Assembly (NCBI GenBank): GCA_017623675.1
Contig: JAGAOO010000055.1
Coordinates: 1-64,000, forward strand
Direction: 5' to 3'
Origin: Lachnospiraceae bacterium
GTDB taxonomy: Bacteria > Bacillota > Clostridia > Lachnospirales > Lachnospiraceae
Length of the DNA: 64,000 nucleotides
Shown in pieces: positions 467-10,163 of this stretch. How positions within the stretch are numbered: position 1 is the first letter of the stretch; every line of letters begins with the position of its first letter. The notes beneath the pieces are model-generated. The model was not told the origin of the DNA and made no database searches. It saw nothing but the letters and a program-made list of their open reading frames with translations. A program made the translations under genes and the position numbers.

Positions 467-1669
467 ATGGAAGGAATATCATTTACAGCTCATGTGAGCA
501 ATAAGAAAAGTGCGATAACATCTAAATCGAAACTCGCAGGAGTGGCAAGACACAACTTAAGGAAATACAAATCAGAAGAATATAGTGCAGATAATATTTT
601 TCTGATACACGGAACAGACAATCTTGTTCAGGATGTAAAAACTGTTTATCATCAGGAGTTTGATGATGCATTAAAAGTCTACAATAAAAATCAAAGTAGA
701 GCAGATCGAAAGATTGAAAACTATTTTGAACATGTAGCAAATAAGGAACAGGATATGGCGGTAGAGATTATCATTCAGGTGGGAGACAGAGCCTATTGGC
801 AGGAACATTGCGAGAATAAAGTTTTTATGAGGCGAATCTATAGGATGCTGTTAGAGGAGCTACAATATCAACTTCCACAGTTTGTGGTAGCCAATGCAGT
901 AGTCCATATGGATGAGGACAGTCCGCATATGCATGTGGTAGGCGTTCCGGTAGGAATAGGCTACAAGAAGGGAATGTCCAAGCAAGTATCCAAACGAAAG
1001 GTATTTACCAAGGAAGTGCTTTCGATAGTTCTTCAGGACAAATTAAGAGCGTTTGCCAATCAGAAAGCGGAAATTGTTCTTGGGGAACAGATAAGAGAAA
1101 AGTCCAAAGGTCGCAATCATGATTTAGCGGTTATGGAATACAAAGTGTTAAAAGAGGAAATTCGTTACGACGAATTGAAGGAGCAGGCTGATGAAAAGCA
1201 GCAGGAGAATGAACTGTTGGAGCGTGAAAAGACACAGCTTGAGCAGGAGTATGACACTTTATCCATGCGGGTAGCGGTTAAGCAGATGGATTATGAGGAA
1301 GCTGACGAACGGTTAAAAGAGGCAAATGAGCGAGCTGACAGAATCGAGGCTTATATCAAAACCCAAAGCGATACTCTGGTGGATTTAGAGGAGAAGGCAA
1401 CGAAGCTGGAGAGAAAAGCGGAGATTGCGGAGATGGTTTATGAAATGGCTAGAGGTTCCGGCGGCAATGAAGACTTGAGAGATAAACTTATAGATGTTAT
1501 GTATGAGAATGAGCAATTAAAAACTGAAAACTCTAAACTTCGGGAAACACTGAATAAAGCATACGATTTCATGAAACAGTTTGTGGTGGATGGAAGGAAT
1601 CTGCTGGAGAAGTTTCTGGAGAGTATTGGGCAGGTGGTTGAGAAGGTTAGGAGTGGGCTGAAAAGATAG
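467..1669 (+). CDS. mobV: MobV-family relaxase (plasmid recombination/mobilisation protein)
   Basis: A 400-residue protein with AAGGAGG at 454-460. The N-terminal domain carries a conserved relaxase signature: RHNLRK with His29 at the position of the nucleophilic His of MobM, and HMDEDSPHMH (147-156), the metal-binding HxDE...PHxH motif of the MobV/Pre family. Residues about 205-330 and 340-380 are long charged coiled coils, as usual in Mob proteins. It would nick oriT and pilot single-stranded DNA during conjugative mobilisation. No type IV secretion or coupling protein genes are visible, so the element is either mobilisable in trans or its transfer genes lie to the left. Its motifs are intact and the reading frame is complete. 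Confidence 0.9.
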   Translation: MEGISFTAHVSNKKSAITSKSKLAGVARHNLRKYKSEEYSADNIFLIHGTDNLVQDVKTVYHQEFDDALKVYNKNQSRADRKIENYFEHVANKEQDMAVEIIIQVGDRAYWQEHCENKVFMRRIYRMLLEELQYQLPQFVVANAVVHMDEDSPHMHVVGVPVGIGYKKGMSKQVSKRKVFTKEVLSIVLQDKLRAFANQKAEIVLGEQIREKSKGRNHDLAVMEYKVLKEEIRYDELKEQADEKQQENELLEREKTQLEQEYDTLSMRVAVKQMDYEEADERLKEANERADRIEAYIKTQSDTLVDLEEKATKLERKAEIAEMVYEMARGSGGNEDLRDKLIDVMYENEQLKTENSKLRETLNKAYDFMKQFVVDGRNLLEKFLESIGQVVEKVRSGLKR

Positions 1670-1674
1670 CATTG

Positions 1675-1700
1675 TTGAGGGCACAGAGATGTGCTCTCAA
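1675..1700 (+). terminator. stem-loop after the relaxase gene
   Basis: TTGAGGGCACA (1675-1685), loop GAGA, TGTGCTCTCAA (1690-1700): an 11-bp stem with one G-U pair, starting five bases after the mob stop. Only a weak T-rich stretch follows, so termination efficiency is uncertain. Confidence 0.5.
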
Positions 1701-1824: not shown

Positions 1825-2190
1825 ATGACAATTAACGAATTATTAGATAAATATAACATATATTATAAGAAATTAAAGGCAGAAAAGGGTATTAGCTTAT
1901 TTAGTGTAGGAAATACAAATGTTTTGTTTTGGATTAATGAAGGCAATGCCTTCAAAATGAAGCGAAGTTGGTTTGAACTTTTAGAGAAGAACTGCGAGAA
2001 ATATACGTTATTTCTTTATGACAAAAAGGGTAAACAGTATTATTACATCAAATTTTTGAATAAGAATAATTGGCTTAGTGGAAGTTTTAATAACTGTGAT
2101 AAGTCGGAGTTGTTCTTAGGAAAACAAGTACTAAATAGCTCAAGTACACTAGGCAATATACTTACAGACTTAAAGAAATGTAGTGTATAA
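1825..2190 (+). CDS. uncharacterised 121-residue protein, first gene of the methyltransferase cassette
   Basis: The start is ATG at 1825 with GGAAGGAAA at 1810-1818. The protein is Lys/Tyr/Phe-rich, with no signal peptide, no membrane helix and no recognisable helix-turn-helix. The centre (FLYDKKGKQYYYIKF) suggests antiparallel beta strands and the C-terminus is rich in Ser, Leu and Lys. I do not recognise the family. Its position at the head of a restriction-modification-like operon, behind its own promoter, is where controller proteins often sit, but no DNA-binding motif supports that here. The DNA is more AT-rich than the chromosome to the right, like the rest of the cassette. Confidence 0.65.
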   Translation: MTINELLDKYNIYYKKLKAEKGISLFSVGNTNVLFWINEGNAFKMKRSWFELLEKNCEKYTLFLYDKKGKQYYYIKFLNKNNWLSGSFNNCDKSELFLGKQVLNSSSTLGNILTDLKKCSV

Positions 2191-2317
2191 AGTAACATTT
2201 ATTACGGACGCATAAAGGGTAATGGAATGTTATGAGTACTGAATATTGGACAGATGCTTATATAAAATAAGAGCATCAGAAGATACTATGAAAAATAGAT
2301 TTGAAGGTGGAATTACT

Positions 2318-3400
2318 ATGAATAAAATCGCTGAATTTCGAATATTGGATTTGTTTTGTGGTGCTGGCGGTTTTTCTTATGGAATGCATAGAAACAAGCA
2401 TTTTAAGACTGCAGTTGCGTTGGACTTTAATGCAAAGGCAGCAGATACATTTAAAAAGAATATGCCGGAAACAATTGTTGTTATAGGTGATATAACAGAT
2501 GAAAAAATTAAGAAGGATATAATTGAAAAGTCAAAGGCAGAAAAGGTGAATATGATAATAGGCGGACCACCGTGCCAGGGATTTTCAATGAAGGGAAAGA
2601 AACTTGGATTGGATGATCCGAGAAATTTTCTTTTTAAAGAATACTTGCATATAGTTGAGGAGGTTCAACCGGAAGTGTTTGTCATAGAAAATGTAAAAAG
2701 TCTTTTGTCAACGGCTGGCGGTTGGTTTAAAGATGAAATTTTGGCTTACATAGAGCGGTTAGGCTATAATGTTTCGTATGGAATCTTGAATGCGAAAAGA
2801 TTTGGAGTTCCACAAGCGAGAGAAAGAGCAATATTTATTTGTTCTAAGAGTAAAAACATTCCTTTGCCAGTTGGAACAGATGATATTGTTACTGTTAGGG
2901 ATGCAATTTCAGATTTGGCATATCTTGCATCGGCAGAAGGTGATTTTGAACTTGATTATGTTACAGAGGCACAGACAGATTATCAGCGAATGATGCGAAG
3001 GAATAGCAAAAAATTGTATAATCATAAGGCATCTGCTCATTCAGATATTGCGTTACAAAAACTTGCTATGATACCACCGGAAAAGGGTAAAGAATATTTG
3101 CCTGAAGAAATGTGGGGTAAGCAAAAGTTCAATACAACTTGGGGAAGATTGGTATGGGATACAGTATCACCAACAATAGACACCAGATTTGATACACCTT
3201 CTAATGGAACCAATTCTCATCCGGAGTTAAATAGAGCAATAACACCGAGAGAAGCTGCTAGAATACAGAGTTTTGATGATAACTTTGTTTTTCATGGAAG
3301 TAAATTCTATATTAGAAGTCAGATTGGTAATGCAGTGCCACCATTGATGGCAGAGGCAATAGCAAATGAAATATGGGAGAATTATGATGAAGAAGAATAA
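2318..3400 (+). CDS. C5-cytosine DNA methyltransferase
   Basis: A 360-residue protein. The start is the ATG at 2318, eight bases after AGGTGG (2304-2309); upstream in-frame TTG 2246 and ATG 2288 lack a ribosome site. Motif I DLFCGAGG is at 11-18, motif IV GGPPCQGFS has the catalytic Cys at residue 86, motif VI is FVIENV, motif VIII is QARERAIFI, and motif X is IGNAVPP near the C-terminus. It transfers methyl from SAM to cytosine C5 within a target sequence fixed by the region between motifs VIII and IX. The next gene, an adenine methyltransferase, starts inside its 3' end, so the two are translationally coupled. This pairing is typical of restriction systems with asymmetric recognition sites. 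All catalytic motifs are present. Confidence 0.93.
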   Translation: MNKIAEFRILDLFCGAGGFSYGMHRNKHFKTAVALDFNAKAADTFKKNMPETIVVIGDITDEKIKKDIIEKSKAEKVNMIIGGPPCQGFSMKGKKLGLDDPRNFLFKEYLHIVEEVQPEVFVIENVKSLLSTAGGWFKDEILAYIERLGYNVSYGILNAKRFGVPQARERAIFICSKSKNIPLPVGTDDIVTVRDAISDLAYLASAEGDFELDYVTEAQTDYQRMMRRNSKKLYNHKASAHSDIALQKLAMIPPEKGKEYLPEEMWGKQKFNTTWGRLVWDTVSPTIDTRFDTPSNGTNSHPELNRAITPREAARIQSFDDNFVFHGSKFYIRSQIGNAVPPLMAEAIANEIWENYDEEE

Positions 3401-4787
3401 TTTATTTTCGGAAAATAGTTTATCATATGAGAATTCTTTGGATGAAGATTATAAGAAGAATAATGGTATATTCTATACTGATTTGGAGTTGGCAAATGCC
3501 ATTATAGATTTTCTTAATATCCCAAAGAATGCATCAATTATAGATCCTAGTTGTGGAACTGGGAGTTTTTTACACTGTTTGGAACAAAAAGGATACACAG
3601 ATATCACAGGATGCGATTTTGATTTAAAAACAGTTAGAAAATGTAAGGAATTGACAGGATTGGAACGCATTTACCGTATGGATACCTTGGGTAAATGTGG
3701 GCAGGAAGTTTTAAAGAAAGTTAAGAAAAAAGAATTTGATTATGTAATAGGTAATCCACCATATGCACCTTTGGGTAATGGGGTCGATATCGTTGCAACA
3801 CCAGAATTCATGAAGACTGTTAAAGATTCAGGAAGCAATTTGTTTGTTGCAGCTATATACAGAGCATTTGAAATTGCAAAAGAAGAAGGATATATTTCGT
3901 TTATAATTCCTAAAAATTTATTACATATATCATCATATAAAACACTTAGAGAAAAGCTTCTTCAAGAAAAGAGACTAGTATCTGTTATAGAGCTTGGAAT
4001 TCATTTTAAAACTGTTCGAGGAGAACAGATTGTTTTAACATTCCAAAATTGTTATGAAGAGAATAACAAAATCAAGTTTTATCAGTACAATAAGGGTAAG
4101 ATTGATTTTATGTCAGAAGTTGCACAAGATTATTACACAAACGAAATTATTGTGTTCACAGATAACGAAGAGGTGCCTATTTATGATAAGTTAAAGGGTT
4201 CTTATGGTCAGTTAGGTGAAGTGTGTGCAGAAAACATTCGTAGAGGTCGTGATAAATCAAAAGATGCTATTCGCGGAAAGCAAATTCGTAAGTTTGGTTT
4301 TAAAGATTTAGAAGTTCCTGAAGAAGGAAATCAAATTTTTATTCAAAATATATTCAGTGCAGAAGCAGGTATTACAGCGAGCTTTGGGGGAAATTTGAAA
4401 CCTTCCGAGACTGTAACTACAGTGAAGCTTGAAAATACCAAAATGTGTAAATATATTTTGGGATTGTTGCATTCACGAGTATGTAACTATTTCCTTATTC
4501 GTTTTGGTTTTAATAATTCACGATTAACGATTCATACAGATGCAAAGTATTTGAATGATATACCAATTGTTGTTGATGATGAAGCATTTGAGAAGGTTGT
4601 AGATATTGTCAACAAGATGGAAGAAGTGGAATATATGGATGCGGAATGGTTTAAGCTGAATGAAGAATTAAATGATATTGTTTACGAGATATATCAGCTT
4701 ACTGTAAACGATAAAGAACATATTGAGAAAGAAATGAGAAAAATTAGTGCTAGCAAATGGTATGGAGAAGATCGTCGCTATGCATAA
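3387..4787 (+). CDS. N6-adenine DNA methyltransferase (NPPY class)
   Basis: About 466 residues. ATG 3387 (or ATG 3384) follows GGGAGA at 3375-3380; an upstream in-frame ATG at 3366 lies before the ribosome site. The coding region overlaps the C5-methyltransferase gene by 14 bases. The N-terminal GIFYT (28-31) matches the substrate-loop region of M.TaqI/HsdM-like enzymes. SAM motif I is DPSCGTGSF (53-61) and catalytic motif IV is NPPY (123-126). The C-terminal half is probably the target recognition domain. It would methylate adenine N6 in one strand of the site while its partner methylates cytosine, as in systems such as HphI. Its length is ordinary for a stand-alone gamma-type enzyme without a fused nuclease, so cleavage must come from another protein. 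Confidence 0.92.
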   Translation: MKKNNLFSENSLSYENSLDEDYKKNNGIFYTDLELANAIIDFLNIPKNASIIDPSCGTGSFLHCLEQKGYTDITGCDFDLKTVRKCKELTGLERIYRMDTLGKCGQEVLKKVKKKEFDYVIGNPPYAPLGNGVDIVATPEFMKTVKDSGSNLFVAAIYRAFEIAKEEGYISFIIPKNLLHISSYKTLREKLLQEKRLVSVIELGIHFKTVRGEQIVLTFQNCYEENNKIKFYQYNKGKIDFMSEVAQDYYTNEIIVFTDNEEVPIYDKLKGSYGQLGEVCAENIRRGRDKSKDAIRGKQIRKFGFKDLEVPEEGNQIFIQNIFSAEAGITASFGGNLKPSETVTTVKLENTKMCKYILGLLHSRVCNYFLIRFGFNNSRLTIHTDAKYLNDIPIVVDDEAFEKVVDIVNKMEEVEYMDAEWFKLNEELNDIVYEIYQLTVNDKEHIEKEMRKISASKWYGEDRRYA

Positions 4788-4823
4788 GTAACAATAACTG
4801 TATTGGGGAAAGAGGTGTTTTTA

Positions 4824-5843
4824 TTGAGTAAGATTGAGTGGCCATCAGATGAGGATAAGTTTGAGGCAATAGGATATTTGGCAAAGCCGGGTGTGGTTGA
4901 TACAATAGAGGCAACTGTGCCGGCAGATAAGCTTAAAAAATTTAAAGATGAATATCATAATAAATATTCAATAGAATTTCCTTATGTGACCAAAGCAGGA
5001 AGTAAGTTTGGATATCAGTTTCGTATTTACTTGAGTGATACAGAGGGGTGTCCGGATTTCTTAGCATCACAGTTAGACGAAAAATATAAGAATCGAATTA
5101 ATGATACAAGCTTTATTGCTGAATTAGTTAATGAGTATGGTTTTAGATTCACTAAGAAAACACAGAATGAGGAACAGATACGAAATTTGGTTAGCGCAAA
5201 GGGTGCTAATCAGATTAGAAGTTTTGAAAAAGGGTTCAGAGTTTATTCGGACTTCCTATATGATCTTTCTGGTAAAATAATTGAGGGCGATTTGCCACAA
5301 CCGTGCATTGTACAACCTAAAGTGGCTGCTAAGGCGAAAGGAAGAAAGCCTAAGAATAGTGGTGAAATGAAGAGTTCATTTACAAGAGAACAGCTTTTTA
5401 AACTAGGATGGCTTGGAGAAACATATATTTATAAAATGCTTGTTATTAAGGATGAATCATTACTTCAGATGCTGGGTATCAACTCTTCAGAAAGCTATAA
5501 AATAGAGTGGTTTAATGAAGGTGTACAAATCGGAGAAGAATGGGAAGATAAATCTGTCGGACAAGGTTGTGACATTGTTGTTTCGTTGGAAGATATGGAT
5601 TTATATATTGAAGTGAAGGCAAGCAAAAGAAAAAATGGATTATTTACCATGACTTCGAAAGAGATGCAAAAAATGAGGGACGAAGCAGGAAAGTATTATT
5701 TGATAAAGATAGATTTTCTTGAAAGAATACTTAAAGGTGAAAGTCCTGAAGTGATGGTGTTTGATTCACCATATAATGTATTTTTCAAACCGGAAAAGAT
5801 GAAGGAAGCTACATTTAAGGTAGAAGGTGATACGAATGAATAA
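4824..5843 (+). CDS. DUF3883-type protein with a PD-(D/E)XK-like C-terminus, candidate restriction nuclease
   Basis: A 339-residue protein. TTG 4824 is preferred because AGAGGTG lies six bases upstream; an in-frame TTG at 4803 precedes that site. The N-terminal part (1-160) is unassigned, followed by a Lys-rich hinge (165-183). The C-terminus starts at LGWLGETYIYKML (194-206) and carries GQGCDIVV (Asp250) and YIEVKAS (Glu263-Val-Lys265), then FTMTSKE. This order matches DUF3883 domains, which have the D...ExK active-site layout of Mrr-like nucleases and are common in defence proteins. It is the best candidate for the cutting subunit together with the smaller nuclease gene downstream. Its stop overlaps the start of the next gene by 8 bases. 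Nuclease activity is inference from the motif. Confidence 0.75.
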   Translation: MSKIEWPSDEDKFEAIGYLAKPGVVDTIEATVPADKLKKFKDEYHNKYSIEFPYVTKAGSKFGYQFRIYLSDTEGCPDFLASQLDEKYKNRINDTSFIAELVNEYGFRFTKKTQNEEQIRNLVSAKGANQIRSFEKGFRVYSDFLYDLSGKIIEGDLPQPCIVQPKVAAKAKGRKPKNSGEMKSSFTREQLFKLGWLGETYIYKMLVIKDESLLQMLGINSSESYKIEWFNEGVQIGEEWEDKSVGQGCDIVVSLEDMDLYIEVKASKRKNGLFTMTSKEMQKMRDEAGKYYLIKIDFLERILKGESPEVMVFDSPYNVFFKPEKMKEATFKVEGDTNE

Positions 5844-6726
5844 TGAAATGGCATACTTATTGGGAATGATAACTGGTAACGGGGAAGTACAGCGTGGTGC
5901 TAATGAGACAACGATTGTTGTTGAAATACCACATAAAAAGCTGGAAACAGAGTTTCAAAAGGATGTAGGCATATATGTAAAGGCTAGTGTGACAGATATT
6001 AGAGAAATTTTGGAGCCATTGTTGGGAACAGGATTGACATTCACACAAAATGCAAATGTGTCATATGTTTCATTTAGAAAGCTGAATGAAGATTATCTCG
6101 TGCGTGAAATATTGAGATATATCGGCGCAGCTACATCACATGATAATGTTCGAATTTCGTCAGAGGTGTATGATTTTACACTTGATGAAAGAAAGCAATT
6201 TATAAAAGGTTTTGCAGATGTTACGGGATATATTAGAAGAAGTAACTATGCATATACAGAACCACAGTATAGAGTATACTTTGAAATTCCACAAAACTGG
6301 GGATTGGTCGTAGATTTCTGTAATTTGTTAAAGAGTGTGGATATCCCGGTTCAGAACATTGACTGGGGACATCCTAATATGAGAGATGGTAATTTGAAAA
6401 AATATAATGAAGGCAAGCCGGATTTCTGGAAAAAGGAGCATCAGGTCAAGGTATGGGCACTTGAATACAATCCAATTGGCTTTGCGGTATTACATAAGCA
6501 AGAGGCGTTAGATTACTTTGCTAATGAGCATAAGGTATTTATTGAGAGACAAGGCAAAGAGCCTTCGGATGTGACGCATAGATATTATTGGGAGATTGTT
6601 AAAAGAAACAAGGAAAAGCCGATACATCCGGGTGAAGATGATGAATTTATTCCGGAAGAAATCCGTGGAAATCATTATGATTCATGGAAAGAGATTGCAA
6701 AGGATTTAGGTTATAAAGAGGATTAA
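5836..6726 (+). CDS. LAGLIDADG-fold protein with substituted catalytic positions, candidate specificity subunit
   Basis: A 296-residue protein from ATG 5836, with GAAGGTG at 5823-5829. Two LAGLIDADG-like helices are visible: LLGMITGNG (8-16) and IKGFADVTG (123-131), about 115 residues apart, as in two-repeat homing endonucleases. The last acidic position, which binds catalytic metal, is Asn in the first motif and Thr in the second. Strand-like segments follow each motif (TTIVVEIP, YRVYFEIP). The protein therefore probably binds a specific DNA sequence without cutting it. It sits between two PD-(D/E)XK-like genes and behind two methyltransferases, overlapping its upstream neighbour. It could be the target-recognition part of a multi-subunit restriction enzyme. 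It is not a selfish homing gene inserted in a host, because it is embedded in an operon with tight junctions. Confidence 0.7.
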   Translation: MNNEMAYLLGMITGNGEVQRGANETTIVVEIPHKKLETEFQKDVGIYVKASVTDIREILEPLLGTGLTFTQNANVSYVSFRKLNEDYLVREILRYIGAATSHDNVRISSEVYDFTLDERKQFIKGFADVTGYIRRSNYAYTEPQYRVYFEIPQNWGLVVDFCNLLKSVDIPVQNIDWGHPNMRDGNLKKYNEGKPDFWKKEHQVKVWALEYNPIGFAVLHKQEALDYFANEHKVFIERQGKEPSDVTHRYYWEIVKRNKEKPIHPGEDDEFIPEEIRGNHYDSWKEIAKDLGYKED

Positions 6727-6727
6727 G

Positions 6728-7204
6728 ATGTTAGAAGAAGAATTATACGAGCCAATGAGAGCCTGGCTTGAACAGTATTTAACAGATAAATATAAAGGAC
6801 ATGAAATTATTGTTGTAGATACACATAGTGAGCGGTTGGACAGAGCATTGGCTAAATATGATATTGTCAATGAAATGGCGAATGGTGTGGATATACAGAT
6901 TGATGTTCTTGGAATTGCAAGAAAGCAGGGAAAGGCAAAGTTGTTCTTTATTGAAGCAAAGAAAACAAAGTTGACATTGCGTGATTTGGGGCAGTTATGG
7001 TCGTACTGTAAACTTGTGGATCCAGAGGAAGCATTTCTCCTAACATCAGCAGATTTGGGAAGTTTGCGTAAGCTGTTGGTATCGTTTAAAAGAGAAGATT
7101 TGCTTGATTTTGGAGATGGTAAAAGGATTAAGAAGATGCGAGTTGGTAAATGGGATGTGCTAAAGGAAAGACCTGATTTGGGTTCTCTTTTACCAAAGAT
7201 TTGA
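6728..7204 (+). CDS. small PD-(D/E)XK nuclease-like protein
   Basis: A 158-residue protein whose ATG lies one base after the stop of the LAGLIDADG-like gene, with AGAGGAT a few bases upstream. An N-terminal helix (LYEPMRAWLEQYL) is followed by IQIDVLGI (Asp59) and LFFIEAKKT (Glu76-Ala-Lys78), then a Gln-containing helix (LRDLGQLWSYCKL). That D-E-x-K plus downstream Gln/Tyr helix is the core of PD-(D/E)XK nucleases. At this size it could be the catalytic subunit working with the DNA-binding protein before it. No extra DNA-binding domain is seen. The following gene begins only 11 bases after its stop. The biochemical role is inferred from the fold and operon position. Confidence 0.72.
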   Translation: MLEEELYEPMRAWLEQYLTDKYKGHEIIVVDTHSERLDRALAKYDIVNEMANGVDIQIDVLGIARKQGKAKLFFIEAKKTKLTLRDLGQLWSYCKLVDPEEAFLLTSADLGSLRKLLVSFKREDLLDFGDGKRIKKMRVGKWDVLKERPDLGSLLPKI

Positions 7205-7215
7205 GGTGTATTGCA

Positions 7216-8154
7216 ATGAGAAAAAAGAGTAGTGGCTACACATTTCTGAACTTGATTAAAGATGTAATGGAGATTGAAAAAAAGCCATTAACTGTTTCGC
7301 AGATATGGAAATGTGGTGAAAAACACGGATTGATAGATAAAGTAGGTAGCAAGGGGAAAACACCTATTAATACTCTTCAAGCAAGATTGTATCTTGATAT
7401 TAGAGATAACGAAAATAGTATATTTGTACAAACATCAAAAAGACCATCGATGTTTTATCTAAAAGATATAGATGTGGAGAAAAGTGAATCTGAAGTGCAG
7501 GATGATGAGCCGAGCGGATATAATGAGCGAGATTTACATATTTTGTTATCTTCATATGTTTATGCGAGTCCGGATTTTCATTGTGTTACAAAAACGATAT
7601 TTCATGAAAAAACAGGAAAGGCAAAGAAAGGATATAATCAATGGCTTCATCCTGATATTGTGGGGATTCATTTTCCTTTTGATGATTATTCTGACGAAAC
7701 ATTGAAATTACAGAGAATGGTAGGGAGTCGTCAGTATAAACTATATTCTTTTGAGATGAAAACTATATTAAATTTTTCTAATTTAAGAGAATTTTATTTT
7801 CAAGCTGTTTCAAATTCGAGCTGGGCTCATGAAGGATATCTTGTTGCTTTAGAAATTGACGAAGACGAAAGTTTTCGAGCTGAGTTAAAACGATTGAATA
7901 ATGCTTTTGGAATAGGTGTCATAAAGCTGAACGCTGAGAATGTAAGTCAGAGTGAAGTCTTGCTGAATGCTAAACAAAATGTTAATTTAGATTGGGATAC
8001 AATAGACAGGTTGTCTGAAAATCCAGATTTTAAACAGTTTATAAGTGATATTAAGGATGATGCTGAAGTAGGAAAGATAAAAAGTCAGTATGATAAAGTA
8101 TATTACGATGATGAAACCGTAGCTGAATATGCAAAGAAAAAACATATTTATTAG
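7216..8154 (+). CDS. HrgA-like protein with HARE-HTH domain and PD...ExK motif
   Basis: A 312-residue protein; ATG 7216 lies seven bases after GAGGTG (7203-7208). Residues about 8-85 match a HARE-HTH domain (FLNLIKDVMEIEKKPLTVSQI, then KTPINTLQARLYLDI and SMFYLKD), a winged helix shared by chromatin factors and restriction proteins. The C-terminal part has LHPDIVG (Pro146-Asp147), YSFEMK (Glu180-Met-Lys182) and REFYFQAVSNSSWAHEGYLV, matching the HrgA/COG2958 family, whose founding member replaces a restriction gene in Helicobacter pylori. The PD...ExK pattern suggests a nuclease. It is the third nuclease-like protein in the cassette and probably the last gene of the operon, since a 78-bp gap with its own promoter follows. 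Confidence 0.8.
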   Translation: MRKKSSGYTFLNLIKDVMEIEKKPLTVSQIWKCGEKHGLIDKVGSKGKTPINTLQARLYLDIRDNENSIFVQTSKRPSMFYLKDIDVEKSESEVQDDEPSGYNERDLHILLSSYVYASPDFHCVTKTIFHEKTGKAKKGYNQWLHPDIVGIHFPFDDYSDETLKLQRMVGSRQYKLYSFEMKTILNFSNLREFYFQAVSNSSWAHEGYLVALEIDEDESFRAELKRLNNAFGIGVIKLNAENVSQSEVLLNAKQNVNLDWDTIDRLSENPDFKQFISDIKDDAEVGKIKSQYDKVYYDDETVAEYAKKKHIY

Positions 8155-8232: not shown

Positions 8233-9138
8233 ATGACAGATACATACAAGAGATTAGTAAGATTTCATTATTATCAAGCGCTTATTGAAAGGGTAAACGA
8301 AAAAGGTCAATGGATTAGAGAGAGCCATTTTAATGTAGCGGATTGGTTGGCGAAATTATCAGATGAAGGAGATATTCGTCGCAATGTTGAATTGAGTGAT
8401 TGTATTGCATATATTGAAAATGTCAAATTTGATAAGGAAAGTTTTTATTCGGTTAGATTTTTTAAATTGAGAGATATAAATATTCCATCTATAGTGAAAG
8501 AAGGGAAAAATTCAGAACCGATTCCATTAGAAGATGATGAATATATCGGAGAAGATATGAATATGTTGTATGATAAAAAACTTGGTGTATGTATGATACA
8601 AAGTAATCGTATGTCTTTGAGTGCAAGTAGGATTGGCGAGTGGATGTCAAAAAAATGCGAAAAGGGCTATAGAGTATCTTTGCTTCCAATTTATAATACT
8701 AAAAATCTGGCGAGTTTTAAAAAGAAAAAGATAAGTAATATCGATATTTCATTTGCTAATATTGAGGAAAATAATTCATTACAGAGTTTAGGTGATATAA
8801 TTAAGGGAATGCGAAAATTTAATGGATTAACAGGACATCTTACTATTAGTGTAGGAAAAAGGACAACACAACAATTGGATAATGATGGTACGTTAGAATT
8901 AATAACTGAGTTGAGAGAAAATCGAGAAGTTGTAAAATCAGCAAAGGTAAAGATGAAGGATGATGACAAATCAAGAACAGAAATAGTAGATTTGTTCGAT
9001 GATGTTTTACATGATTATATATCATTTGATGTAGAAGTGAAGAAAAATTTAGATTTTGATGAAGAGCGATTGGGCATGATACAAAGATACAAGGAAAGAG
9101 TTGATGAAATAACACAGGCATTAAATATGAAAGGATGA
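8233..9138 (+). CDS. uncharacterised 301-residue soluble protein, Kiwa KwaB-like position
   Basis: ATG 8233 follows AAAAAGGAG at 8215-8223. The protein is acidic and lysine-rich, soluble, with no signal peptide or obvious enzymatic motif. A central segment (YDKKLGVCMIQSNRMSLSAS) looks like a beta-strand/helix element, and it ends in a charged helical tail. It resembles DUF6731-type proteins of Firmicutes from memory of general features, but I cannot confirm that. It overlaps the next gene, a four-helix membrane protein, and the pair has its own promoter inside a defence region. Size and pairing match Kiwa (KwaB about 315 residues with a four-helix KwaA), although gene order is reversed. A defence role is inferred from context only. 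Confidence 0.6.
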   Translation: MTDTYKRLVRFHYYQALIERVNEKGQWIRESHFNVADWLAKLSDEGDIRRNVELSDCIAYIENVKFDKESFYSVRFFKLRDINIPSIVKEGKNSEPIPLEDDEYIGEDMNMLYDKKLGVCMIQSNRMSLSASRIGEWMSKKCEKGYRVSLLPIYNTKNLASFKKKKISNIDISFANIEENNSLQSLGDIIKGMRKFNGLTGHLTISVGKRTTQQLDNDGTLELITELRENREVVKSAKVKMKDDDKSRTEIVDLFDDVLHDYISFDVEVKKNLDFDEERLGMIQRYKERVDEITQALNMKG

Positions 9139-9143
9139 TTAAT

Positions 9144-9683
9144 GTGAACATAAGATATTATGTTGAAAGAATTTATCCATATGTAATTGCGCTAGTAGCG
9201 GTATGCTTTTTGATAAAATTTAAAATTAATTATGTTTCATCGGAAAATATGAATGATGCTATTGATGGTGTTATTACAATTACATCACTTATCATTGGAT
9301 TTATAGGGGCTGTTTTGCCAATTGTTATGAGTATGAAGAATGATTCGAAGTTTGTACAATATGTTTTTGAAAAGGATGAAAACAAACTTTTTTTAAAATA
9401 TATTAAGGTAACATTGTTTCATGGAATAGTACTCATACTTATATCCATAGTAATGTATTTTAAAGATGAATATATTGATACGATAATATATGGAAAAATT
9501 TTTTATGTATGGATTCTTTTTTTAATTTTATTCTTAATCTCAACATATAGGTGTACTTGTAATATGCTTAATTTGATATTTACGGATGGTAATAAAATTA
9601 TAAAGAATGTTAATAATATTGATTTAGCGGAAACAGATAGAGAGAAGAAGTTTAGAGAAAGACTTGAAAAAGAAGAAAAATGA
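9144..9683 (+). CDS. four-helix membrane protein, Kiwa KwaA-like position
   Basis: A 179-residue protein. GTG 9144 is favoured because AAGGA (9131-9135) lies eight bases upstream; the alternative ATG 9135 sits on that site. Four hydrophobic segments are seen: YPYVIALVAVCFLI, VITITSLIIGFIGAVLPIV, LFHGIVLILISIVMYF, and VWILFLILFLIST. A charged cytoplasmic tail of about 35 residues follows. It has no transporter signature. With the preceding soluble protein it makes a two-gene membrane-sensor-plus-partner unit, the arrangement of Kiwa and several other phage-defence systems. Very high A+T and abundant Ile/Phe codons mark it as accessory DNA. Confidence 0.65.
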   Translation: MNIRYYVERIYPYVIALVAVCFLIKFKINYVSSENMNDAIDGVITITSLIIGFIGAVLPIVMSMKNDSKFVQYVFEKDENKLFLKYIKVTLFHGIVLILISIVMYFKDEYIDTIIYGKIFYVWILFLILFLISTYRCTCNMLNLIFTDGNKIIKNVNNIDLAETDREKKFRERLEKEEK

Positions 9684-10127: not shown

Positions 10128-10163
10128 ACTCCTCAGTATGTTACGATACTGAGGAGTTTTTTC
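10128..10163 (+). terminator. strong intrinsic terminator
   Basis: ACTCCTCAGTA (10128-10138), 8-base loop, TACTGAGGAGT (10147-10157), perfect 11-bp stem with TTTTTT directly after. It insulates the MutS-like gene from transcription entering from the left. Confidence 0.93.

Follow-up and report, generated by a model that had tools for sequence, protein, structure and literature searches.

How might DNA be recognized and cut by a system in which two different DNA methyltransferases are followed by no single fused endonuclease? The question is raised by positions 1825-8154 of a 64,000-nucleotide stretch of Lachnospiraceae bacterium DNA (contig JAGAOO010000055.1; hereafter the window), where a C5-cytosine and an N6-adenine methyltransferase share a tightly packed run of genes with a LAGLIDADG-like protein and a small PD-(D/E)XK protein. 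Judging from the sequences, these four genes are probably the core of a split, two-subunit Type II restriction-modification system in which a nuclease-dead reader would recognize the site, a separate cutter would cleave it, and one methyltransferase would guard each strand. On balance, we also favor the wider view that a disarmed LAGLIDADG protein serves as reader for a separate PD-(D/E)XK nuclease in several phyla and in phages, and that the methyltransferases have been swapped while the site stayed unchanged.

The central observation is a pair of genes that stays together. With the LAGLIDADG protein as query, we recovered two plasmid records (both from L. plantarum), two phages, four viral contigs, and, from 84,980 species genomes, 139 relatives, the best 80 of which were kept. 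Three loci were dropped, one being the window itself (L001), one having the same genes as another locus (L004, as L003), and one lying on the same contig as another (L090, as L007). The remaining 88 loci, window included and every one collected through its LAGLIDADG gene, were compared by tblastn. The LAGLIDADG and PD-(D/E)XK genes are adjacent, as the same pair, in 88 of 88, with the PD-(D/E)XK match starting 859-923 bases past the start of the LAGLIDADG match each time. Searches that started from the PD-(D/E)XK gene returned only the same four viral contigs and two plasmids, and the two genes are fused into one open reading frame (ORF) nowhere among the called ORFs. The ORF caller missed the PD-(D/E)XK gene in L010, L035, and L061, a methyltransferase gene with an SPPY motif in L031, L048, L050, L061, and L064, and the LAGLIDADG gene in L031, leaving 87 loci with a called LAGLIDADG ORF. 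By tblastn, the missed genes carry no internal stop, and tblastn counts are used for them.

The pair is widespread. Bacillota account for 52 of 87 loci, Bacteroidota for 8, Elusimicrobiota for 4, Spirochaetota for 3, and six other phyla for one or two each; 12 of the 87, the window among them, have no phylum. Many loci are metagenome bins, and some taxon labels may be wrong. The smallest form, on the two L. plantarum plasmids (6.5 and 8.8 kb), consists of a fused methyltransferase, the reader, and the cutter, with neither a DUF3883 nor an HrgA-like gene. Near-identical copies with neighbors in common occur in a Lachnospiraceae phage (L006) and in Ruminococcus torques ATCC 27756 (L088), and the latter copy is probably a prophage because of this likeness.

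What in this pair could read DNA? The product of the first gene carries two motifs, LLGMITGNG (residues 8-16) and IKGFADVTG (residues 123-131), spaced 115 residues apart. Comparison of its family profile with a profile of six intein LAGLIDADG proteins by hhalign gave a probability of 86.9% and a score of 51.2; the best of 200 column shuffles reached 29.8 (0/200 as good), the reversed alignment gave 0.06%, and unrelated profiles gave at most 1.6%. Against the first four of the six intein proteins the probability was 63.5%, and the N-terminal half alone placed motif 1 on intein motif 1 at 29%. By its two motifs and this profile similarity the protein is assigned to the LAGLIDADG superfamily, as the preliminary description had proposed, and it would share the LAGLIDADG fold.

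In LAGLIDADG nucleases, each motif has an acidic residue close to its end. In motif 2, hhalign aligned DVTG of the family with DSDG of the inteins, placing a threonine where the inteins have aspartate; in motif 1, the family has asparagine at a position that is aspartate in two and asparagine in two of the four intein proteins compared. These residues, N15 and T130, which we take to be the catalytic acid positions of LAGLIDADG nucleases, are invariant in 87 of 87 proteins. Because both acid positions are thus Asn and Thr throughout, the protein is read as a nuclease-dead reader, one that seems to lack a nuclease center of its own.

The second protein of the pair is, by motif, a predicted PD-(D/E)XK nuclease. 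All 42 aligned members have D59, E76, K78, Q89, and Y93, and the 84 called ORFs all keep D, ExK, and QxxxY (83 recognized by pattern, L051 by eye), in agreement with the earlier assignment. The QxxxY element marks the RecB-like branch of PD-(D/E)XK nucleases.

Methyltransferases accompany the pair consistently. At least one lies nearby in 88 of 88 loci and two do in 84 of 88, counts that come from tblastn and describe linkage without implying cognate specificity. The four remaining loci (L027, L057, L074, and L085) meet a contig end 0.7-1.9 kb upstream. Three pairings occur: an Eco57I-type N6 enzyme with an SPPY enzyme (40 loci; the N6_N4 Pfam domain of the latter was checked on L007 only), an EcoRI-type N6 enzyme (PF13651) with a C5 enzyme (35 loci), and, as in the window, an Eco57I-type N6 enzyme with a C5 enzyme (9 loci). 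The types exclude each other: among the 88 loci, C5 and SPPY enzymes occur together in none, nor do Eco57I-type and EcoRI-type N6 enzymes. Relatives of the window C5 methyltransferase next to a LAGLIDADG gene are 64-79% identical to it, leaving aside a partial match of 24% in L035. Fifteen ORFs of more than 560 residues near the core were taken as methyltransferase fusions, 14 of them in the EcoRI-type plus C5 pairing and one (L065, 907 residues) in the Eco57I-type plus C5 pairing; both domains were verified in L003, L005, and L006, and in L065 both matches fall on one ORF, whereas the other 11 were assigned by length and tblastn.

These counts bear on whether the window holds two adjacent systems, one made of the C5 methyltransferase with the LAGLIDADG and PD-(D/E)XK proteins and the other of the N6 methyltransferase with the HrgA-like or DUF3883 protein. 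HrgA genes are indeed found apart from the core. Yet an N6 methyltransferase is present in 84 of 88 loci, the other four being those cut by a contig end, and the checked loci have N6 and C5 enzymes joined in one protein. This division was already disfavored and is, in our estimate, extremely improbable. The idea of orphan methyltransferases beside unrelated genes was also considered and rejected. We return to the single split system, for which the preliminary description of two different methyltransferases with recognition and cutting placed on separate small proteins is supported.

How has the unit descended? When the methyltransferase pairing is mapped onto a tree of the 87 LAGLIDADG proteins, at least five changes are required, against a minimum possible of two and a mean of 33.5 for shuffled labels; the tree is of a quick kind, and its well-supported branches alone force one to two changes per class. 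The unit is mostly inherited together, since the distances of all testable partners correlate, with a methyltransferase replaced now and then. If C5 and SPPY enzymes are alternatives for one slot, the base guarded there would most simply be cytosine, as 5-methylcytosine (m5C) or N4-methylcytosine (m4C). The SPPY motif does not prove m4C. In L007 (L007:7231-7998), the one member tested, the N-terminal part of the SPPY enzyme aligns with the C-terminal half of PF01555, which would suit a permuted motif order. The methyltransferases did not yield a recognition sequence: their nearest PDB relatives (DNMT1, HaeIII, and HhaI; BrxX and TaqI; MboIIA and others) give no specificity, no PDB relative of the EcoRI-type enzyme was found, and none of the S. 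suis methylome papers listed could be tied to this system.

Several observations weigh against our interpretation. For the LAGLIDADG-like protein, no Pfam match reaches threshold (11 of 45 members match Hom_end, at a best E of 0.034), a PDB profile search at E up to 10 matched no chain, the WhiA profile does not match (0.6%), and the two halves of the protein do not match each other (0.9%). The PD-(D/E)XK protein likewise matched no chain in a PDB profile search at E up to 10, and its commonest Pfam match, YhcG_C, is below threshold (12 of 42 members, best E 0.011). Distances correlate among all testable partners (r 0.59-0.86), those of the LAGLIDADG and PD-(D/E)XK proteins not especially, so these two show no more co-evolution than other pairs. 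Every genome locus was collected by way of its LAGLIDADG gene, and the comparison leaves out 59 of the 139 relatives from genomes. Finally, one recognized active site, that of the PD-(D/E)XK protein, would have to serve two DNA strands, and a polar block at residues 176-205 (HPNxRD...WKKEHQxK), conserved and lying outside both LAGLIDADG motifs, could be an unrecognized active site.

The last two points lead to a different assignment, a Type IIT enzyme in the full sense, with an active site in each subunit, in which the LAGLIDADG-like subunit would both recognize the site and cut one strand through an altered center, for example the 176-205 block, and the PD-(D/E)XK protein would cut the other. 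All 87 proteins conserve each of twelve residues in the block (D176, H179, N181, R183, D184, K189, K199, K200, E201, H202, Q203, and K205), and the large subunits of BtsI and BspD6I recognize and nick. The block may simply hold DNA or a partner, however; Asn and Thr stand at the two LAGLIDADG acid positions in all 87, and the protein shows no consistent match to another nuclease family. We regard a second active site as unlikely, though worth keeping in mind.

In the small protein, YhcG_C aligns ExK...Q...Y in register, though its profile score of 25.62 hardly exceeds the best of 150 shuffles (25.58). PF05204 was found in none of 116 relatives, PHROGs gave nothing convincing for either protein, and PDB searches with single sequences gave nothing useful. 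PADLOC models matched few members, and weakly, examples being Cas4d in 2 of 42 (the best count) and REase_II in 1 of 42 (E 0.0013) for the PD-(D/E)XK alignment, and PtuA in 1 of 45 (E 0.0007) for the LAGLIDADG-like alignment. We do not take these matches as homology.

Under the split-system interpretation, the LAGLIDADG protein would read the DNA sequence, having lost its own nuclease center, and its two motif-bearing halves would suit an asymmetric site. The small PD-(D/E)XK protein, with no choice of site on its own, would be held by the LAGLIDADG protein and would cut. One methyltransferase would mark adenine on one strand and the other cytosine on the opposite strand, and each methyltransferase slot could be refilled by an unrelated enzyme of equal specificity. 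The whole may serve in phage defense.

The arrangement in the window is given in Table 1. The seven ORFs of 1825-8154 are all on the + strand and run head to tail with short overlaps, bearing out the tight packing and the overlapping junctions at 3387 and 5836 described previously. The N6 frame opens at 3366 (ATG at 3387), before the end of the C5 gene at 3400, the DUF3883 gene ends at 5843, past the family-conserved ATG of the LAGLIDADG-like gene at 5836, and the PD-(D/E)XK gene ends at 7204, past the start of the HrgA-like gene at 7201. For the 121-residue, LAGLIDADG-like, and PD-(D/E)XK proteins of the window there is no Pfam or NCBIfam match past the cut-off and no PADLOC match at E up to 1. 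The N6 enzyme matches TIGR02987 with E 5e-16, far under the curated cut-off.

Table 1. Features of the window in and around the restriction locus, with their coordinates and assignments.
Feature	Position	Strand	Basis of assignment
MobV-like relaxase gene, upstream of unit	467-1669		Mob_Pre E 9.7e-16
Terminator-like hairpin before unit	1675..1700	+	
Gene 1 (121 residues), occasional neighbor	1825..2190	+	No family above threshold
C5-cytosine DNA methyltransferase	2318..3400	+	PF00145 (DNA_methylase) E 3.7e-72; ORF from TTG 2246, ATG 2318
N6-adenine DNA methyltransferase, Eco57I/Alw26I-like, NPPY	3387..4787	+	PF07669 (Eco57I) E 3.5e-17, PF02384 E 7.4e-15; frame opens 3366
DUF3883/NOV_C protein (N-domain and C-terminal D...ExK domain), optional accessory	4803..5843	+	PF13020 (NOV_C) E 1e-9
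LAGLIDADG-like protein (296 residues), proposed recognition subunit	5836..6726	+	Motifs LLGMITGNG, IKGFADVTG; hhalign against intein profile
Small PD-(D/E)XK protein (158 residues), proposed cutting subunit	6728..7204	+	D59, E76-A-K78, Q89xxxY93
HARE-HTH/HrgA-like protein (317 residues), separate neighboring gene	7201..8154	+	PF05066 (HARE-HTH) E 1.2e-11
DUF6731 gene, cargo neighbor	8233-9138	+	PF20505 E 1.5e-56
Gene for hydrophobic, probably membrane, protein, cargo neighbor	9135-9683	+	
Terminator-like hairpin after unit	10128..10157	+	

Because the two terminator-like hairpins frame the region, the transcription unit may extend through the DUF6731 gene and the gene after it to 9683; weaker hairpins are also present within genes. 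The G+C fraction is 0.31-0.35 at 2-10 kb and 0.38-0.43 elsewhere in the window, and a search of 194 other related genomes found the LAGLIDADG gene in none. For these two reasons, the restriction locus is probably acquired cargo. The contig starts at window base 1, next to the relaxase gene, so the mobile element may be cut. A pair of DUF6731 and hydrophobic-protein genes also follows the nuclease gene in L016 (61% and 49% identity), and this pair could be a second small defense unit.

Which of the other genes belong to the system? The preliminary description had treated all seven as one and had expected the non-methylase genes to stay with the methyltransferases. That expectation holds for the LAGLIDADG and PD-(D/E)XK genes; the HrgA-like gene occurs without the core on 25 plasmid records, and the DUF3883 gene is optional. 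We therefore reject a seven-gene system, the HrgA-like gene and gene 1 being rare. The window is one of 4 loci among the 88 in which the HrgA-like gene follows the nuclease gene. None of its 25 plasmid records is among the two plasmids with the LAGLIDADG gene, and of three plasmid contexts viewed, one has an annotated type I restriction-modification neighbor and two have no annotated methyltransferase within 3-5 kb. HrgA is best read as a neighbor from a defense cluster and not as a part of the system. Gene 1, in 4 of 88 loci, varies in placement, lying downstream of the nuclease gene in its homologues (the near-identical L006 and L088, and L042); it and the HrgA-like gene are occasional neighbors. 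Elsewhere in the window genome (G000:C40:24089-24328), a 93-residue open stretch resembles the HARE-HTH end of the HrgA-like gene at 40% identity.

The DUF3883 protein has its whole form in 9 of 88 loci and its N-domain only in 42 of 88. The N-domain also stands alone as a protein of about 110-165 residues, on either side of the pair and in some loci twice. In L023, L025-L030, L033, L037, L049, and L051, two unlike small proteins of this N-domain family are adjacent to each other between the methyltransferases and the reader gene. The gene is an optional accessory. These distributions also bear on a larger endonuclease, in which DUF3883/NOV_C would contribute another PD-(D/E)XK-like active site and HrgA would be one more component. 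All 9 whole NOV_C copies keep D...ExK (by eye), and a member of the DUF3883 N-domain family lies near the core in 51 of 88 loci. Set against this, no DUF3883-family gene was found within 5.5 kb in 37 of 88 loci, the NOV_C form was not found in 79 of 88 (some loci being cut short), and the HrgA-like gene is as rare as described and found elsewhere without the core. We consider such an enzyme quite improbable and retain the split enzyme of reader and cutter.

Other genes come and go around the core. A small controller-like helix-turn-helix gene lies upstream in 11 of 87 loci (HTH_26 in the one tested with Pfam). The slot after the nuclease gene holds OLD-TOPRIM and UvrD genes (Gabija-like) in L008, L032, and L033, SfsA in L023, L042, and L059, GIY-YIG with DUF4357 in L006, L029, and L088, and an 862-residue AAA protein in L009, L079, and L080, the families having been tested on one member per cluster (L008, L023, L006, and L009).

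Split enzymes with two methyltransferases are already known (BtsI, BsrDI, and BspD6I); as far as our searches reach, a LAGLIDADG reader is not. No such system was found in the literature on LAGLIDADG proteins and restriction-modification, a search mostly of abstracts with subscription papers, patents, and REBASE outside it. The BsaXI literature names LAGLIDADG only in a comparison with I-SceI and I-AniI and in the corresponding reference. In its accessible text, a 2014 review sorts Type II enzymes chiefly according to PD-D/EXK, HNH, and GIY-YIG centers and does not use the word LAGLIDADG (PMC4081073). If our interpretation is correct, homing endonucleases and restriction enzymes would be joined by recognition rather than by cutting, and the system would be a natural modular "meganuclease reader plus nuclease" enzyme and a model of a detachable reader and cutter, useful for nickase and enzyme design. 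The three methyltransferase pairings (N6-methyladenine with m5C, or with perhaps m4C) would then make the guarding of one site by different chemistries testable. Scans of the PADLOC kind are likely to pass over these systems or to call orphan methyltransferases, because none of the PADLOC models gives consistent matches to either subunit family (best 2/42 and 1/45).

Overall, the system combines features of several known ones. With the LAGLIDADG homing endonucleases of inteins it has the two motifs and the profile match in common, but Asn and Thr occupy the acid positions in all 87 proteins, and the LAGLIDADG-like protein has its own gene beside methyltransferases, not read inside an intein. 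WhiA is a LAGLIDADG-fold DNA binder. It is described, in the accessible part of its report, as a LAGLIDADG-related regulator (PMC3781837); this use of a LAGLIDADG-related protein for binding is alike as a concept only, as there is no profile match (0.6%). Alw26I, Eco31I, and Esp3I have methyltransferase pairs for asymmetric sites, and the window N6 enzyme matches the Alw26I model only far under its cut-off. In M. hominis, MhoVII has a pair of the YhdJ and MTaseD12 classes that marks GATG/CATC, according to the available text (PMC12898733). These systems resemble ours in having two methyltransferases, separate or fused, for the two strands; those of MhoVII belong to other classes.

The closest likeness in plan is to Type IIT enzymes. 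The preliminary description held that the known partners of such methyltransferase pairs are one endonuclease; that does not hold for BtsI, BsrDI, and BspD6I, which are split into unequal subunits, the large one recognizing and nicking and the small one catalytic; two methyltransferases, separate or joined, are the general rule in Type IIT systems (PMC4081073; PMC2909958, in the portions available). BtsI, in the latter source, has one methyltransferase per strand, and its large subunit BtsIB has its own PD-EXK residues, P57, D58, and E72 (PMC2909958). That large subunit thus has a catalytic site, whereas none is recognized in the LAGLIDADG-like large subunit here, which would differ in fold and seems not to cut. 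The present loci have two unlike adjacent genes in 88 of 88, two methyltransferases in 84 of 88, and one recognized catalytic site, that of the PD-(D/E)XK protein, so that membership in Type IIT would hang on a second catalytic site and on the complex. In the plan shared with BtsI, BsrDI, BspD6I, and BstNBI as far as these sources describe them, and taken here from the genes alone, namely a large recognizing subunit, a small catalytic subunit, and two methyltransferases, the system seems to work like a Type IIT enzyme.

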